A DNA stretch of 36,285 nt, taken from the NCBI GenBank assembly GCA_012522085.1, contig JAAYLE010000012.1:1-36285 (forward strand), given 5' to 3'. The stretch is from Bacillota bacterium. Its GTDB lineage: Bacteria > Bacillota > Limnochordia > JAAZLZ01. This document shows, piece after piece, positions 26,119 through 33,788 of this stretch; position 1 is the stretch's first letter; each line of letters begins with the position of its first letter. The position numbers were made by a program, and so were the translations under genes. The notes beneath the pieces were generated by a model. It did not search any database and was not told the DNA's origin. It worked only from the letters and a program-made list of their open reading frames with translations.

Positions 26119-26406
26119 TTAATCAGTGCTGCTGCGTAGACTTTGATAGAGAATCATCACCCCAAAAACCCAAAAAAGTAGCCCGGCGGCAATGCTCAGG
26201 TACTTGACCGGAACATAATTGGTAATGTAGCCGCCAACAAAAGACCCCAGGAGAGTGACCAAGACTATGGCTACCGACCCGCCGACGAAGACTGACCAGG
26301 GAGCCTTGGTCCTGCAGGCCATGGTAACGACTGCCAGCTGGGTCTTGTCGCCAAGTTCCGCAAGAAAGAGCATGCCAAAGGTCAAGGAGAACACTTTCCA
26401 GTCCAA
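26119..26406 (-). CDS. Half-size UPF0016/TMEM165 (GDT1) transporter, copy B
   Basis: About 95 aa with a single UPF0016 repeat: three hydrophobic segments and one signature LAELGDKTQL (E-x-G-D-K-T). Full-length members carry two such repeats and transport Ca2+ or Mn2+. The next gene upstream is a closely similar half, so the two probably form a heterodimer that rebuilds the two-repeat pore. TTG at 26406 is chosen because it gives M-D-W-K, matching M-D-W-R in the partner, with AAAGGA 8 bases upstream. Confidence 0.85.
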   Translation of the reverse strand: MDWKVFSLTFGMLFLAELGDKTQLAVVTMACRTKAPWSVFVGGSVAIVLVTLLGSFVGGYITNYVPVKYLSIAAGLLFWVFGVMILYQSLRSSTD

Positions 26407-26428
26407 ATCCAACTTCCTTTCAACAAGG

Positions 26429-26720: not shown

Positions 26721-27323
26721 TCAATGGGGCTCGTTTGCGATTTGCCGACTGCCCCGTTTGGTGATGGGCACGTTCGCTCGGCACAAGGGGCAGTCGGACG
26801 GCTGCCAGACTTCAATGTCCAGTTGCAGCAGCGCTTCTGTCCGCACCCCAAAATCGACTTTGCCGCCGCTGCGGTCGATGAGGAGGCCGACTCCTGCAAT
26901 CTGACCGGGCGTCTTCTCCAGAACCGCCAAGACTTCCTTGACTGACCCCCCTGTTGTGACGATATCTTCAACCACCAGGACCTTTTCCCCTGGGTTGATG
27001 GCAAACCCTCGCCGCAAGCACATCACTCCATCTTCCCTCTCGGTAAAGATGGCTCGCGCCCCCAATTGACGGGCCACTTCATAAGCGAGAATAATGCCGC
27101 CGGTCACTGGGCCGACCACAACATCCACACCCTCGTCTGCGAAGCGGCGGGCCAGCTCCGCACAAAGACGCTCAGTATGCTTGGGATGCTGGAGGACCTG
27201 GAATTTTTCCAAGTATGTGTCGCTGTGCAGACCGGAGGTGAGAAGAAAATGTCCTTTGAGCAGGCCGCCTGCATCCGCGAAGATGTCCAGGACCTCCTGG
27301 GGAGTGAGTGGATTCACGATCAT
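26721..27323 (-). CDS. pyrE: Orotate phosphoribosyltransferase
   Basis: Orotate + PRPP to OMP. It is about 200 aa. The phosphate/orotate loop appears in GHFLLTSGLHSDTYLEK and the PRPP-binding motif in VLVVEDIVTTGGS. The C-terminal extension DCPLCRANVPITKRGSR, with two cysteines, occurs in a subset of bacterial PyrE proteins. ATG at 27323 has AAGGA 5 bases upstream; the adjacent GTG at 27326 is an alternative. It follows pyrD in the operon. Confidence 0.95.
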   Translation of the reverse strand: MIVNPLTPQEVLDIFADAGGLLKGHFLLTSGLHSDTYLEKFQVLQHPKHTERLCAELARRFADEGVDVVVGPVTGGIILAYEVARQLGARAIFTEREDGVMCLRRGFAINPGEKVLVVEDIVTTGGSVKEVLAVLEKTPGQIAGVGLLIDRSGGKVDFGVRTEALLQLDIEVWQPSDCPLCRANVPITKRGSRQIANEPH

Positions 27324-27332
27324 CACCTTCCT

Positions 27333-28244
27333 TTAGGGATGGGCCGCTCCCACCAGCGAAGAGAGTCCATCCAATCCTTGTGATTCGATGTATGCCTCAA
27401 GTTCCCGGATAATCCTTACGCTAATCCTAGGGTCAACAAAATTGGCACTGCCCACCGCGATAGCCCCGGCCCCAGCCAAGATGAACTCCAAGGCATCCTG
27501 TCCGCTAGTAATTCCCCCCATGCCGATGATGGGCACCCGCAAGGCCGCATAGACTTCCCAGACCATTCTGAGGGCAATGGGCCTGATGGCCGGACCTGAC
27601 AGCCCCCCAAAGGTGTTGGCCAAAACAGGCCGCCGGGCCTGGACATCAATGCTCATCCCGAGGACTGTGTTAATCAGGGACAGGATTTGAGCTCCGCCTT
27701 CCACGGCCGCCTCGGCTATCTGGACAATGTCACCCACATTGGGGCTGAGTTTGCAGATCAGGGGCAAAGTAGTCGCTTCCCTGACGGCTTGGACCACGTC
27801 CCGGACCATGACGGGATCGGTTCCAAAAGCTAGCCCCCCTTCTTCAACGTTAGGGCAGGAAATGTTTATTTCCAACGCCGCCACCGACGGTTGGCCATTT
27901 AACCGGGCGGCAACCTCAGCATATTCACCGACGGTGCTGCCAGCGATATTGACGATGACGGGACACTTAAGACCCGTGAGCTTTGGCAGCTCCTCCCTGA
28001 TGACAGCATCTACGCCTGGGTTTTGCAATCCGACGGAGTTGAGCAGCCCCGCAGGGGTCTCCACTATCCGGGGCGGCCTGTTGCCCCCTCGGGGATGAAG
28101 GGTAGTGCCTTTGACCACCAATCCACCCAGCTGATTAAGATCAATGTATGTACCATATTCTTCGCCGTACCCGAAGGTGCCCGAAGCCACCAGAACCGGG
28201 TTTGGCAGCTTCAGCGGTCCCAGGACGGTGGTCAAGTCAGCCAT
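27333..28244 (-). CDS. pyrD: Dihydroorotate dehydrogenase class 1B, catalytic subunit
   Basis: Oxidises dihydroorotate to orotate using FMN, passing electrons through PyrK to NAD+. It is 303 aa. Motifs include NPVLVASGTFGYG, GLVVKGTTLHPRGGN, GLLNSVGLQNPG and NISCPNVEEGG, whose Cys is the class 1 catalytic base. ATG at 28244 overlaps the last 8 bases of pyrK and has GAGGAGG upstream; the frame continues upstream only over pyrK. The presence of pyrK confirms the NAD-linked 1B type. Confidence 0.95.
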   Translation of the reverse strand: MADLTTVLGPLKLPNPVLVASGTFGYGEEYGTYIDLNQLGGLVVKGTTLHPRGGNRPPRIVETPAGLLNSVGLQNPGVDAVIREELPKLTGLKCPVIVNIAGSTVGEYAEVAARLNGQPSVAALEINISCPNVEEGGLAFGTDPVMVRDVVQAVREATTLPLICKLSPNVGDIVQIAEAAVEGGAQILSLINTVLGMSIDVQARRPVLANTFGGLSGPAIRPIALRMVWEVYAALRVPIIGMGGITSGQDALEFILAGAGAIAVGSANFVDPRISVRIIRELEAYIESQGLDGLSSLVGAAHP

Positions 28245-29001
28245 GCAGGTCCACCTCCTCAGCCCAAAACACGGGCCCTTCAGTACAAACCCGTACGTAC
28301 CCGTTCGGGGTGGGGCAGGCGCAGCCAAGACAAGCTCCGATCCCACAACCCATCCTTTCTTCCAACGAGACCTGCAGGGGCGCTCCCGCCTGTTGGCAAG
28401 CATCTTTTAGGGCCGACAGCATCGGCCTTGGACCACAAGCATAGACAGCATCTTCACTGCTTAAGTGTTTTTCCAGGAGGGTGGTTACTACGCCGCGAAA
28501 GCCGACGCTGCCGTCTTCCGTTGCGATCTCCACCTGGCAGCCCAAAGCCGCGAAATCTTCGCTGGCAACCACATCCCTTCCTCTTCTAAAGCCTACCAGC
28601 ACCGCCGGCCTTTGTCCAGCCTCTCGCAGCCTCCGGGCGAGAAAAAGGAGAGGAGCGAGGCCCATGCCGCCGCCGACCAAAACCGGCCGACGCCCGGGAA
28701 CTAGGGTAAACCCTCTCCCCAAGGGTCCCAAAAGATCCACCTCGTCCCCTGGCTGCAGGTGACTGAGCAGATGGGTTCCCCTGCCCACCACCTCATACAA
28801 CAAGGCGATCGTCCCTTCCTGTGGGCTGCATTCATGGATGCTCAAGGGACGCCGCAAAAACGGATCCCTAGACATCTGCGGAGCCGTCTGCACATGGACG
28901 AATTGTCCGGGCTCAGCATCGGCTGCCACTTGTGGGGCCGACAAGATTAATCGATAGATACCATCAGCCAGCATCGTGTTCTTGCGAACGGTGGTCAGCA
29001 A
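28237..29001 (-). CDS. pyrK: Dihydroorotate dehydrogenase electron-transfer subunit
   Basis: FAD and [2Fe-2S] subunit that links PyrD to NAD+. It is 254 aa. The FAD domain contains FLRRPLSI, the NAD domain LVGGGMGLAPLLFL, and the iron-sulfur cluster uses the cysteines of ERMGCGIGACLGCACP and RVCTEGPVF. TTG at 29001 is preferred because AGGGGGAG lies right after the carA-like stop with good spacing. A longer in-frame ATG at 29037 lies inside the carA-like gene without a ribosome site; GTG at 29007 is another option. Confidence 0.93.
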   Translation of the reverse strand: MLTTVRKNTMLADGIYRLILSAPQVAADAEPGQFVHVQTAPQMSRDPFLRRPLSIHECSPQEGTIALLYEVVGRGTHLLSHLQPGDEVDLLGPLGRGFTLVPGRRPVLVGGGMGLAPLLFLARRLREAGQRPAVLVGFRRGRDVVASEDFAALGCQVEIATEDGSVGFRGVVTTLLEKHLSSEDAVYACGPRPMLSALKDACQQAGAPLQVSLEERMGCGIGACLGCACPTPNGYVRVCTEGPVFWAEEVDLHG

Positions 29002-29014
29002 CCCCACTCCCCCT

Positions 29015-30082
29015 TCACGATGAAATGCCCAGCTCATGCAGCCAACGGGTCAAGGGATTCTCTTCCTTAGGGGCCATGGGGCCGAGGGGCAGTCGATACT
29101 GGACCGACGCTATCGGCAGGCGTCGATGCCTCAGTCCCTCGATGGTGCCGTCGTTGAGGTTGCGATGGGTAATGGCTAAGTCAGTGCCGACGACGCTCTC
29201 CTCCTCAACCACGTAGCCGTGGCTTTGTCTGGAAATAAACACTCTGCCCCCTTCTTCCTTGACCGGCAAGTTATGCCCGCGATGTCCCTGAGCCATCTTG
29301 ACCACTTTCGCCCCAGCGGCCATGGCCAAGAGTTGATGTCCCAGCCCTACGCCGAAAAGGGGCGTTTTCGACAAGATTTGGGTTAAGTCCCCGATAGGGG
29401 CCGCCTGAGGTGCGCCAGGGCCGTTGGAGATGACCGTAAGCAAAGGATTATTCCGCACTACTTCCTCTACCGGAAAGGCTGGCGGAAACACGGTCACTCC
29501 CACGGGAAAGTCCCTCAAAGTCGCCAAGATCTCCGCTGCTCCGCCAAGATCGATCACGTTGATCTGCCTCGAACCTTCTTGGGCTACGTACGGATGTTTG
29601 GTGGCCACTTCGTCTACCAGGTCTTGCTCTTCAATAGTCGGCAGGCTCCGCAAGCGCTCCAAGACGGCTGCCAAGTTATCGATGTTGCGGGTAATGATTC
29701 CCCGCATGGGGCCCTTGTCGCGCAAATGACGGGTCAAGGCCCTGGTATCTAGGCCCTGCAGACCAACGACGCCGCTTCGACGCAAGAAACTCGCCAAGCT
29801 CTCCTGGGAGCGCCAATTATGGGGAAAAACGCAGAACTCCTTCACGACCAGGCCGCGCACATGGGGGCGTTTTTCCACCAATTCGGTTGGATCGATCCCA
29901 TAATTGCCGACCAAGGGGTATGTTAGGACAACGATCTGGCCCAGGTAGGCCGGATCGGTAATGATATCTTGATATCCAGTCACTGCCGTGTGAAACACTA
30001 CTTCACCCCATACTTCGTTGGGGGCGCCGATAGTAGTGCCCACGTACACTTCACCATCTTCCAAAACGAGGAATCCTTTCAT
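29015..30082 (-). CDS. CarA-like protein with a lost glutaminase triad (pseudo-amidotransferase)
   Basis: Homologue of the carbamoyl-phosphate synthase small subunit, 355 aa, full family length and undisturbed frame. The N-terminal CarA domain is well kept (GYQDIITDPAYLGQIVVLTYPLVGNYG, GLDTRALTRHLRDKG). The C-terminal class I glutaminase domain has lost its active site. The nucleophile motif G-x-C-L-G-H-Q reads GVG246LGHQ (codon GGG), and where CarA has QYHPEASPGP it reads QYRLPLGP, so the His is R330 and the Glu is P332. It also has SNGPGAP for SNGPGDP, and DLGGAAEIL where CarA has a DFGxKxNIL-type segment. It cannot hydrolyse glutamine by the known mechanism. No carB follows. It may support an ammonia-dependent synthase or be regulatory; this is inference. 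The ribosome site is weak. Confidence 0.9.
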   Translation of the reverse strand: MKGFLVLEDGEVYVGTTIGAPNEVWGEVVFHTAVTGYQDIITDPAYLGQIVVLTYPLVGNYGIDPTELVEKRPHVRGLVVKEFCVFPHNWRSQESLASFLRRSGVVGLQGLDTRALTRHLRDKGPMRGIITRNIDNLAAVLERLRSLPTIEEQDLVDEVATKHPYVAQEGSRQINVIDLGGAAEILATLRDFPVGVTVFPPAFPVEEVVRNNPLLTVISNGPGAPQAAPIGDLTQILSKTPLFGVGLGHQLLAMAAGAKVVKMAQGHRGHNLPVKEEGGRVFISRQSHGYVVEEESVVGTDLAITHRNLNDGTIEGLRHRRLPIASVQYRLPLGPMAPKEENPLTRWLHELGISS

Positions 30083-30114: not shown

Positions 30115-31020
30115 TCATGCGCCAAGCCCTAAGGCCTGGTTGATGTCCACCTTCATGTCTCTGGCCGCATCCTTTGCCGCTCGGGCAAACTCCTTCGCCC
30201 CATATCTTTCTCGATAGGCGAAGATGATGCCTCGGGAGGAGTTGACGATCGCCCCCGTCCCATCAGGATGGAAGCAGCAAGCCACATCCTCTGCTGTTCC
30301 CCCTTGATGCCCGTAGCCTGGCACCAAGAAGGGCAGTCTGGGCAGCTGCTGACGAAGCTGACGAGCTTCGTCGGCATAGGTGGCTCCCACCACCACTCCC
30401 ACCGATCGGTACCCCCCTTCCCCTTCCGTTCCCTGGCTCCAACCATCGATCAGGTCCGCTAGATGAAGATAAAGGGGTCGGCCTTGGACTAGCAGATCCT
30501 GAAGATCGCCTGCGGAGGGATTTGAAGTCCGCAGCAGGATGAACAGTCCCTTGTCCCCGTCCCGACAGCGGTCAATGAAGGGTTTGAGGCCGTCTTCGCC
30601 CAGATAAGGATTCACCGTCAGCGCATCCCCGGCCAACGGGCCGTCGCCCAGATAAGCCTCCGCATAAGCAGCGGCCGTTGAGCCAATGTCGTTGCGCTTG
30701 CCGTCGACGATGACTAATAGTCCTGCCTCTTTGGCCATGGCCAACGTCTTTTCCAAGGCCAGAAATCCCCATGCGCCGAGCCGTTCGTAAAAGGCCACTT
30801 GGGGTTTGACGGCCACCACATCTGCGGCAATGGCTTCGATAATGGCTTCGTTGAAGCGAATGATTGCCTGTGCTACGGCCTCGGCCCCTTCCCCATGCTC
30901 TAGGTACGCATCCTCGAGCAGGTGGGGAGGCATCAATTGGAGGTGGGGATCGAGTCCAACCACAACACGGCTGTTTTTCCGCTGGATAGCTGACATCAGC
31001 CTATCGGCAAAGCTTGCCAC
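30115..31020 (-). CDS. pyrF: Orotidine 5'-phosphate decarboxylase (group 2)
   Basis: Decarboxylates OMP to UMP. It is 301 aa, the longer group 2 type rather than the roughly 240-aa B. subtilis type. Motifs are RVVVGLDPHL, VVAVKPQVAFYE, the catalytic LVIVDGKRNDIGSTA (Lys-x-x-Asp) and PFLVPGYGHQGG. GTG at 31020 has GGGAGGTGAG a few bases upstream, overlapping the pyrC stop. It lies between pyrC and the carA-like gene, not between pyrD and pyrE as in B. subtilis. Confidence 0.94.
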   Translation of the reverse strand: MASFADRLMSAIQRKNSRVVVGLDPHLQLMPPHLLEDAYLEHGEGAEAVAQAIIRFNEAIIEAIAADVVAVKPQVAFYERLGAWGFLALEKTLAMAKEAGLLVIVDGKRNDIGSTAAAYAEAYLGDGPLAGDALTVNPYLGEDGLKPFIDRCRDGDKGLFILLRTSNPSAGDLQDLLVQGRPLYLHLADLIDGWSQGTEGEGGYRSVGVVVGATYADEARQLRQQLPRLPFLVPGYGHQGGTAEDVACCFHPDGTGAIVNSSRGIIFAYRERYGAKEFARAAKDAARDMKVDINQALGLGA

Positions 31021-31024
31021 GACC

Positions 31025-32308
31025 TCACCTCCCGCTCTCATCGCCCCATTTAATCTGTCCACCGACAATCGTGTAGACTGGCCAGCCTTGCAGTTCCTGT
31101 CCGATGAAGGGAGAATTCTTGCCCTTGCTGACCAGGAGCTCCTCCGTCACTTGCTGCTTCTTATTCGGATCGAACAGTACCAGGTCCGCAGGCTCTCCAA
31201 CCGCTATCCGTCCCCCGGGCAAGTTGAAAAGGTCTGCCGGTTGGCGAGTGAACAGATCGATGGCCTGGAGGAGGGACAAAGCTCCCGTGAGCACCAGGTG
31301 AGTATAGATAACGGGCCAAGCCGTCTCCAGTCCAACCATCCCCCAGGCTGCATGGGCGTACTCAACATCCTTATCATCGCGGGAGTGGGGTGCATGGTCG
31401 GTTGCAATACAGTCAATGGTGCCATCCAACAGCCCAGCCCGCAAAGCCTCCACATCCTCCCTCGTGCGCAGGGGAGGACTCACCTTCGTATTTGGGTCGT
31501 AGGTGGCAACTTGCTCGTCGGTCAAAGTCAAATGGTGGGGAGTTGCCTCCGCACTCACTCGTAGTCCCAGCTCCTTGGCCCTGCGGATCAAGTCAACGCC
31601 CTCTTTAGTGCTGACATGGGCGAAATGGATTCGTCCGCCTGTCAAGCGAGCAAGCTCCACATCCCGGGCGATAATCACACTTTCCGCTGCTCGGGTTTGA
31701 CCCGGCAGGCCCAAGAGGGTGGACATGCGCCCTTCGTTCATCAAACCCTGCCCGGCAAGATGGACATCTTCGCAGTGAACCGACAGGGGCAAGTCCAGCA
31801 TTTTCCCATACTCCAACGCTCGGCGCATAACTGCGGCATTCATGACCGTATTGCCGTCATCACTGAAAGCGACAACACCAGCCGCGGCCAGGTCCGCCAT
31901 TTCCGAGAGCTCCTCGCCTCGCCTTCCTTTCGTAATCGCCCCGATGGGGTAGACCCTCACTGCACCGTTCCTGGCCGCTTCCGCCAGGATGAACTCCACC
32001 ACCGCCCTGTTATCCACTGGGGGGTTGGTGTTCGGCATGCAGACGACCGAGGTGAATCCCCCGCGGGCTGCAGCCCGCGTGCCGCTGGCGATAGTCTCCT
32101 TATACTCGAATCCCGGCTCCCGCAAATGAACGTGCAAGTCAATGAATCCGGGAGCAACAACTAACCCCTGGGCCGAGATCTCCTCCTCGGCTGCCGGTAG
32201 ATCTGTTCCCACGCCGACGATCTGGCCACCTTCGATGAGAACGTCGGCGGGAGCATCAATTCCCCCGGCGGGGTCGACGACCCGTCCCCCTTTAATCAAC
32301 AGGCTCAT
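31025..32308 (-). CDS. pyrC: Dihydroorotase
   Basis: Zinc amidohydrolase that cyclises carbamoyl-aspartate to dihydroorotate. It is 427 aa, type I. Zinc ligands H59 and H61 lie in FIDLHVHLREPG, further metal residues in SVHCED and HFAHVST, and the catalytic Asp in CIATDHAPH. All sites look intact, so this is an active enzyme rather than the inactive PyrC-like form of some bacteria. The ATG overlaps the pyrB stop (ATGA). Confidence 0.96.
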   Translation of the reverse strand: MSLLIKGGRVVDPAGGIDAPADVLIEGGQIVGVGTDLPAAEEEISAQGLVVAPGFIDLHVHLREPGFEYKETIASGTRAAARGGFTSVVCMPNTNPPVDNRAVVEFILAEAARNGAVRVYPIGAITKGRRGEELSEMADLAAAGVVAFSDDGNTVMNAAVMRRALEYGKMLDLPLSVHCEDVHLAGQGLMNEGRMSTLLGLPGQTRAAESVIIARDVELARLTGGRIHFAHVSTKEGVDLIRRAKELGLRVSAEATPHHLTLTDEQVATYDPNTKVSPPLRTREDVEALRAGLLDGTIDCIATDHAPHSRDDKDVEYAHAAWGMVGLETAWPVIYTHLVLTGALSLLQAIDLFTRQPADLFNLPGGRIAVGEPADLVLFDPNKKQQVTEELLVSKGKNSPFIGQELQGWPVYTIVGGQIKWGDESGR

Positions 32309-33234
32309 GGGATATCCTTCCCCCCCGATAAGAGATAAAGTACAGCCATGCGGACAGCCACCCCATTGGTGACTTGTTCATTGATGCTAGCACGGGGATC
32401 CTCAGCTACATCGGAGGTGATCTCCACCCCCAGGTTAGTGGGGCCGGGATGAATAATCAACACGTCATCTTTAGCTCGGTCGAGGCGCCTGCGATTAAGT
32501 CCGTAGAGGGCCGAGTACTCCCGTAGAGATGGAAACAGACCGGCGACTTGCCTTTCCTTTTGGATGCGAAGCATGTTGATTACATCCACGCGGGGAATGA
32601 CCTCATCGAAATCATGGCTTACCTCCACGCCCATCTCCTCGATTCCTTGGGGAATCAAGGTGGGAGGGCCAATCACCGTTACTTTGGCTCCCATTTTCGT
32701 CAAGCCCCAGATATTGGAGCGAGCCACCCGGCTATGTAGAATATCGCCCACGATGGCCACATGCAACCCTTCGATGGAGCCCTTCTTGTCCTTGATGGTA
32801 AACAGGTCAAGCAAGGCTTGGGTGGGATGTTCATGGGCCCCATCACCCGCATTGATCACGCTGATTTGGACTGTTTCGGCAAGCAATCTAGCACTGCCCG
32901 CAGCATAATGACGGATAACAACAAAATCGGCCCCTAGGGCCTCGATGGTCTTGGCAGTGTCCTTGAGGGACTCTCCTTTGGCTACACTGCTCAGATTGGT
33001 AGAAATGTTGACTACATCGACACTCATCCACTTGCCCGCCAGTTCAAAGGAAGTACGGGTTCTAGTGCTTGGTTCGTAGAAAAGATTCACCATTACCCGG
33101 CCCCTTAAAGTGGGGAGTTTCTTGATGGGTCGGGTGAAAATCTCTTTGCAAGGTTCTGCCGTATCCAAAATCAGTTGGATTTCATCTCTGCTGAGGTCCT
33201 GCAGACCCAAGAGATGCTTGCGTGTCCAAGACAT
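32305..33234 (-). CDS. pyrB: Aspartate carbamoyltransferase catalytic subunit
   Basis: Carbamoyl phosphate + aspartate to carbamoyl-aspartate. It is 309 aa. The carbamoyl-phosphate loop is EPSTRTRTSFE (54-64) and the second signature is GDGAHEHPTQALLDLFTI. There is no pyrI regulatory subunit, as usual in Bacillota. GGGAGG lies upstream of the ATG. The gap from the pyrR stop is only 14 bases, leaving no room for the second attenuator found in B. subtilis. Confidence 0.96.
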   Translation of the reverse strand: MSWTRKHLLGLQDLSRDEIQLILDTAEPCKEIFTRPIKKLPTLRGRVMVNLFYEPSTRTRTSFELAGKWMSVDVVNISTNLSSVAKGESLKDTAKTIEALGADFVVIRHYAAGSARLLAETVQISVINAGDGAHEHPTQALLDLFTIKDKKGSIEGLHVAIVGDILHSRVARSNIWGLTKMGAKVTVIGPPTLIPQGIEEMGVEVSHDFDEVIPRVDVINMLRIQKERQVAGLFPSLREYSALYGLNRRRLDRAKDDVLIIHPGPTNLGVEITSDVAEDPRASINEQVTNGVAVRMAVLYLLSGGKDIP

Positions 33235-33248
33235 GAGTGCGCCTCCCT

Positions 33249-33788
<540 letters not shown>

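Follow-up and report, generated by a model that had tools for sequence, protein, structure and literature searches.

A CarA homologue without its glutaminase triad in a bacterial pyr operon, a probable subunit of an ammonia-fed carbamoyl phosphate synthetase

The pyr operon of a Bacillota bacterium (class Limnochordia) carries a complete carA homologue, here called the window carA, whose product has lost the glutaminase site of its family. The protein is in all likelihood a CarA by descent and a pseudo-amidotransferase by function, a view that we hold as part of the best overall explanation of the data. It probably still docks on the single CarB of this organism, forming a carbamoyl phosphate synthetase (CPS) that would take free ammonia, not glutamine, for the synthesis of both pyrimidines and arginine. 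Judged from its sequence, the protein has no working glutaminase; selection maintains the gene, and the CarB encoded elsewhere in the genome is intact. The window, i.e., the whole stretch of DNA analyzed, comprises 36,285 nucleotides (contig JAAYLE010000012.1), and the features discussed below are:

33249 to 33788, minus strand: pyrR, first gene of the operon (syntenic matches in relatives)
32305 to 33234, minus strand: pyrB, aspartate transcarbamylase (PF02729 match)
31025 to 32308, minus strand: pyrC, dihydroorotase (syntenic match in relatives)
30115 to 31068, minus strand: pyrF (TIGR02127)
29015 to 30082, minus strand: window carA, CarA homologue of 355 aa; predicted dead site G246 (for Cys), R330 (for His), P332 (for Glu)
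29345 to 29347, minus strand: Gly246 codon GGG at the nucleophile position, within 29333-29362, which encodes PLFGVGLGHQ
29087 to 29095, minus strand: R330-L331-P332 codons, replacing His353-Pro354-Glu355 (computed from the ORF start at 30082)
28237 to 29037, minus strand: pyrK ORF, directly after carA in the slot expected for carB; the profile match begins at residue 16, and translation probably starts within the ORF
27333 to 28244, minus strand: pyrD (TIGR01037; match from near residue 55 of a longer ORF)
26721 to 27326, minus strand: pyrE (TIGR01367)

As originally predicted, the window carA is full length and in frame among pyr genes. The intact ORF of 355 aa scores 351 bits against TIGR01368, the profile of glutamine-hydrolyzing CPS small subunits (EC 6.3.5.5), with a cut-off of 307, and both expected domains are recognized, PF00988 (CPSase_sm_chain) with 165 bits and PF00117 (class-I GATase) with 108 bits. 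Alignment to E. coli CarA (1c30/1a9x) bears out the claim that the whole catalytic triad is replaced: C269, H353 and E355 correspond to G246, R330 and P332, and the congeners agree on the Gly. The E. coli segment GICLGHQ is GVGLGHQ in the window CarA, and FQGHPEAS is VQYRLPLG. The C-terminal part of the triad can be aligned in two ways: MAFFT shifts a gap and puts a Pro at position 354, and the ungapped segment reads R330-L331-P332. His and Glu are gone both ways. Three further replacements, S47 by A, K202 by A and N311 by S (E. coli numbering), affect what we take to be glutamine-pocket residues; among 123 Cys-type CarAs, Ser47 and Lys202 are each present in 122 and Asn311 in all 123. The GATase domain has no Cys whatsoever, the single Cys of the protein being N-terminal (KEFCVFP), and the oxyanion segment NGPG and the GHQ are retained. 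The loss extends beyond the triad, and, as described below, the change is widespread rather than peculiar to one strain.

The N-terminal domain was said to be well kept, and 31 of its 34 well-conserved columns are indeed retained. An AlphaFold2 model of the window CarA (pLDDT 90.9, pTM 0.91) finds E. coli CarA as its first match in the PDB (TM 0.89-0.91), followed by the glutaminase-like domain of human CPS1. The protein is a CarA by family that lacks the defining catalytic features. The closest congener whose gene is complete shares the Gly and Arg and also lacks the Glu (VQYRLPIG); in the third congener the gene is interrupted by a contig end, with the Gly present and no stop codon. Sequencing error is ruled out because the congeners share these changes.

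The operon order is pyrR-pyrB-pyrC-pyrF-carA-pyrK-pyrD-pyrE, with carB absent. Profile searches of the window genome (92.7% complete, 223 contigs) recovered one PF00988 gene and one PF02787 gene. The latter, the sole carB, encodes 1097 aa and lies on contig C20, ~84 bp behind argD and without an adjoining carA; both congeners have the same split arrangement. The original prediction had proposed a search for carB and for an intact second carA. It yielded this one carB and no second or intact CarA in the three genomes of the genus, each of which has one PF00988 gene (MAGs, 87-93% complete). Class relatives with an intact CarA show the same split, their carA lying among the pyr genes and their carB behind argD (L093/L094, L097/L098; G025), so the window carA stands where the ancestral carA stood and is no stray paralogue. 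PyrG, the only other class-I GATase above cut-off in the window genome, keeps its Cys, His and Glu; the loss is therefore specific to CarA, and a genome-wide decay of glutaminases is rejected.

Two other features of the window were recorded. Immediately behind pyrE, a pair of successive ORFs at 26119-26412 and 26429 to ~26700 encodes half-size membrane proteins of the GDT1 family (PF01169), which probably form one transporter. A tRNA-Pro (cgg) is present at the window edge (57-134); nothing else in the window matched Rfam, and hence neither a PyrR-type leader nor any other Rfam leader was detected upstream of pyrR.

The window carA is maintained by purifying selection, dead domain included. 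Its dN/dS values among the congeners are 0.09, 0.09 and 0.15 (Nei-Gojobori), with 0.05-0.11 for the N-terminal domain and 0.08-0.15 for the GATase domain. These values lie in the range of pyrC, pyrF, pyrE and carB (e.g., carB, 0.04-0.08; pyrC, 0.07-0.09; pyrF, 0.08-0.17). The suggestion that the replacements might be clade-wide and under purifying selection is thereby upheld.

All ATP-grasp catalytic residues of CarB that were checked are intact, whether CarA is active, dead or absent. A difference among these groups is found in the motif VYKxVDTC (E. coli CarB 525-532; K527xxD530TC532), in one of the two domains that contact the glutaminase subunit, the other being the carboxyphosphate domain (PMC6245113). 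If minor variants are included (N for K in one, DTN in two, DSC in one), 21/21 CarBs whose CarA is active and 9/9 whose CarA is dead have the motif, and 16/16 orphan CarBs have lost it. The contrast recurs inside single genomes that hold both kinds of CarB (G018, G051, G054, G060, G062). On the tree, CarA was lost four times independently and the motif is gone each time; all four contrasts agree, although a sample of this size does not reach significance (p = 0.125). Set aside from the motif counts were G034 (91% complete), which keeps the motif with no carA detected and whose carA may be unassembled, and the second carB of G012, which has no motif. Given this pattern, the simplest reading is that a dead CarA still docks and that the docking site decays once CarA is gone. 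The four losses of CarA in the class with CarB kept also show that a CarB can persist where no glutaminase subunit is left. We found no convincing signature of ammonia use in CarB; a single position, E. coli site 274, is shifted in both the group with dead CarA and that with absent CarA. The intact catalytic residues and the retained CarA-linked motif support the proposal, made originally, that the window CarA may be the partner of an ammonia-using CarB.

Several other CPS arrangements occur in the class. Orphan CPS operons with the order pyrB-pyrC-carB-pyrK-pyrD-pyrE and no carA are present in several families (L066, L068, L069, L070, L071, L072, L346), and G018 has a glutaminase-free pyrimidine CPS beside a normal carAB arginine CPS. 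In a third CarB type (L347, L351, L355), WExVPVSGV replaces VYKxVDTC, with no carA or pyr genes recognized alongside. At L104 (G062), CarB homology beside carA falls into two tblastn pieces of unequal identity with a break at ~residue 430, and this carB is possibly frameshifted or split. G006, G010, G014 and G022 have two transcarbamylase genes (PF02729) and neither carA nor carB was detected in them; their carbamoyl phosphate may come from carbamate kinase or arginine breakdown.

Cys-less CarAs are not confined to the genus. We searched 68 genomes of the class (≥85% completeness) and found carA in 26, carB in 37 and carB without carA in 11. Nine genomes have a Cys-less CarA, eight with Gly and one with Ser (L018 in G008; codon TCC, a replacement like that of human CPS1); in a 99% complete member (G003), the one CarA is also dead. 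A scan for PxFGx?LGHQ, in which any codon beginning with A, C or G was allowed at the Cys position, matched 10 of 399 Bacillota genomes, including the window (29333-29362), and the codon specified Gly in 10/10. In an even draw of Bacillota, 102 of 109 CarAs have the full triad and five have the Cys replaced, each time by Gly; 5/109 is a low estimate because the fetched set was skewed to high scores. Scanning contigs for the Gly form gave at least 118 stretches, and among the matches listed are Sporosarcina, Lederbergia, Allobacillus, Oceanobacillus, Syntrophomonas, rumen Clostridia, Alistipes and Opitutales.

Dead CarAs are common to whole genera, and most Gly-CarAs outside the window genus adjoin carB. 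Among the cultured genomes examined, a Gly-CarA is the sole CarA in seven; Sporosarcina cascadiensis and Oceanobacillus rekensis are species in this state. In four species (Lederbergia lenta, L. galactosidilytica, L. panacisoli and Siminovitchia fordii), the pyr-operon CarA and a divergent paralogue (L384, L385, L386 and L387, in the genomes of L119, L125, L142 and L122, respectively) are both of the Gly form, which leaves these genomes without a Cys-type CarA. The His is also altered in most Gly-CarAs and the Glu in fewer, consistent with Cys to Gly first and erosion later; the window CarA, with all three residues gone, would be the far end of this loss series. For L022, the presence of Glu at 355 depends on which of two alignments is used. 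L168 was rejected as a CarA, having no CarA homology and a chance match to the pattern. Blocking of the tunnel at position 293, where human CPS1 has Gln318 for E. coli Gly293, was also considered; the residue is His in the window CarA and Asp in G001, and tunnel blocking is no general rule because most Gly-CarAs keep Gly, Ala or Ser there.

The Gly form has arisen repeatedly. On a CarA tree of 75 rows, built with the triad columns left out, the Cys/Gly label needs 14 changes, of which at least 10 are forced by well-supported branches. A tree forced to unite all Gly rows is worse by 533 log-likelihood units (p-AU = 8e-9), so that a single ancient loss is rejected. The changes are read as losses since Cys is the catalytic and near-universal state. 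The window CarA would accordingly represent one of many independent conversions of Cys to Gly.

Other explanations of the window carA can be weighed against these data. The ammonia might be supplied by another glutaminase, either a second CarA in the unassembled 7% of the genome or a trans-acting GATase such as TrpG/PabA. The genomes are incomplete MAGs, which keeps a second CarA conceivable, and class-I GATases of other systems are able to share their partners. However, none of the three congeners has a second CarA, PyrG is the sole other GATase above cut-off, and the nearly complete G003 likewise has a single, dead CarA; we judge this explanation unlikely, albeit the least unlikely of the alternatives. 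Less probable still is that the window CarA acts independently of CarB in a new role within the pyr operon, e.g., as a regulator or a scaffold for other pyr enzymes. Its gene does lie beside pyrK and far from carB, and the former glutamine site would be free for another ligand, but a carA in the pyr operon with a carB in an arg operon is normal in the class even where CarA is intact, most Gly-CarAs elsewhere are neighbors of carB, and both the conserved N-terminal columns of the window CarA and, in 9/9 dead-CarA genomes, the CarA-associated CarB motif are kept.

Lower again in our estimate is a decaying pseudogene, in which the glutaminase is unneeded and the gene is drifting to loss. Loss is evidently tolerated, as carA is gone entirely in several related lineages, and in one comparison the window CarA varies most in its C-terminal tail. 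Drift would not yield Gly for Cys in every match of the codon scan, however, and the low dN/dS extends to the GATase domain; furthermore, the gene is full length in the two genomes that have it whole and free of stops in the contig-cut third, the fold is predicted with high confidence, and dead CarAs are old enough to span whole genera. Finally, an active glutaminase with a different nucleophile is extremely improbable: GHQ and the oxyanion NGPG persist, but the only Cys is in the N-terminal domain, and His, Glu, Ser47, Lys202 and Asn311 are lost together with the catalytic Cys.

We therefore favor a CPS in which the window CarA accompanies CarB. The CarA pocket has been dismantled while selection keeps the N-terminal docking domain and the fold, and the protein would sit on the CarB encoded behind argD as in E. 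coli, as a structural or regulatory subunit. Ammonia would come in from the solvent, either by way of the old glutamine site, now open, or along a side path, as has been suggested for CPS1 (PMC4655335). CarB would make carbamate and then carbamoyl phosphate for PyrB and ArgF. By the account given in PMC6245113 (citing Rubino 1987), E. coli CarB carries out NH3-driven carbamoyl phosphate synthesis in vivo at high NH3, and NH3 use by the E. coli enzyme requires very high, likely unphysiological concentrations (PMC6245113). The CarB of the window organism would thus need a better NH3 affinity. Many hosts of Cys-less CarAs come from digesters or guts or are species of Sporosarcina, some of whose members are ureolytic, which makes high ammonia a plausible setting; the Cys-less state may be of benefit in ammonia-rich habitats. 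More tentatively, and at somewhat less than even probability, ammonia-specific CPS may be common and repeatedly evolved in bacteria, with Cys to Gly as an adaptive switch in high-ammonia lineages after which CarA becomes a non-catalytic subunit or is lost. Perhaps the Gly opens an ammonia entry or unlocks CarB, rather than reflecting mere decay.

The closest known parallel is vertebrate CPS1 (5dot/5dou), which also retains a glutaminase-like domain without the nucleophile (Ser294 in human) and uses free ammonia (PMC4655335), and the fold of this domain is matched by the model of the window CarA. The two differ in that CPS1 is one fused chain that requires N-acetylglutamate and serves the urea cycle, whereas the window carA and carB are separate genes on different contigs in a setting of pyrimidine and arginine biosynthesis; in addition, CPS1 has Cys to Ser, while the window CarA has Cys to Gly plus the loss of His and Glu. 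We read the window CarA as a convergent bacterial counterpart of CPS1 with an independent origin. Bacterial CarAB (CPS II; E. coli 1a9x, 1c30) is homologous in sequence, domains and fold, and for CarB over its whole length with catalysis apparently intact, but the window CarA is without the triad or glutamine pocket and the two genes belong to separate operons. E. coli CarA C269 mutants and CarB alone (Rubino et al. 1986, 1987, as cited in PMC6245113) are engineered glutaminase-free, NH3-driven forms, of which the window CarA would be a natural case. NadE without a glutaminase domain (PMC3376133) is likewise an ATP-dependent amidating enzyme that runs on ammonia; its single-domain form is held to be ancestral, while in the CPS discussed here a glutaminase is dead or lost. 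The orphan CarBs of relatives in the same class offer CPS without a glutaminase, differing in that there is no CarA protein and VYKxVDTC is gone.

Bacterial CPS has been treated as glutamine-dependent (PMC6245113, PMC6022934, PMC3376133). A review names glutamine as the physiological nitrogen donor for the E. coli enzyme and, by extension, for all bacterial CPS (PMC6245113), and Table 1 of a 600-genome survey has no CarAB lacking the glutaminase (PMC3376133). We found no reports of a Cys-less bacterial CarA in the literature surveyed, which covers a minority of the subscription journals, and the pattern of convergent glutaminase loss in bacterial CPS is apparently unreported. Judged from sequence, the glutamine-donor rule would fail in whole genera, including cultured Sporosarcina, Allobacillus, Oceanobacillus, Pseudogracilibacillus and Lederbergia. 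Metabolic models built on TIGR01368 would assign the wrong nitrogen source, since this profile labels the window CarA ‘glutamine-hydrolyzing’ above its cut-off. In bacteria with Gly-CarAs, free ammonia is very likely the substrate of the supposed ‘glutamine enzyme’, and the ten or more parallel Cys to Gly events, along with active, dead and absent CarAs in one class, would make the evolution of CPS1 testable in culturable bacteria.
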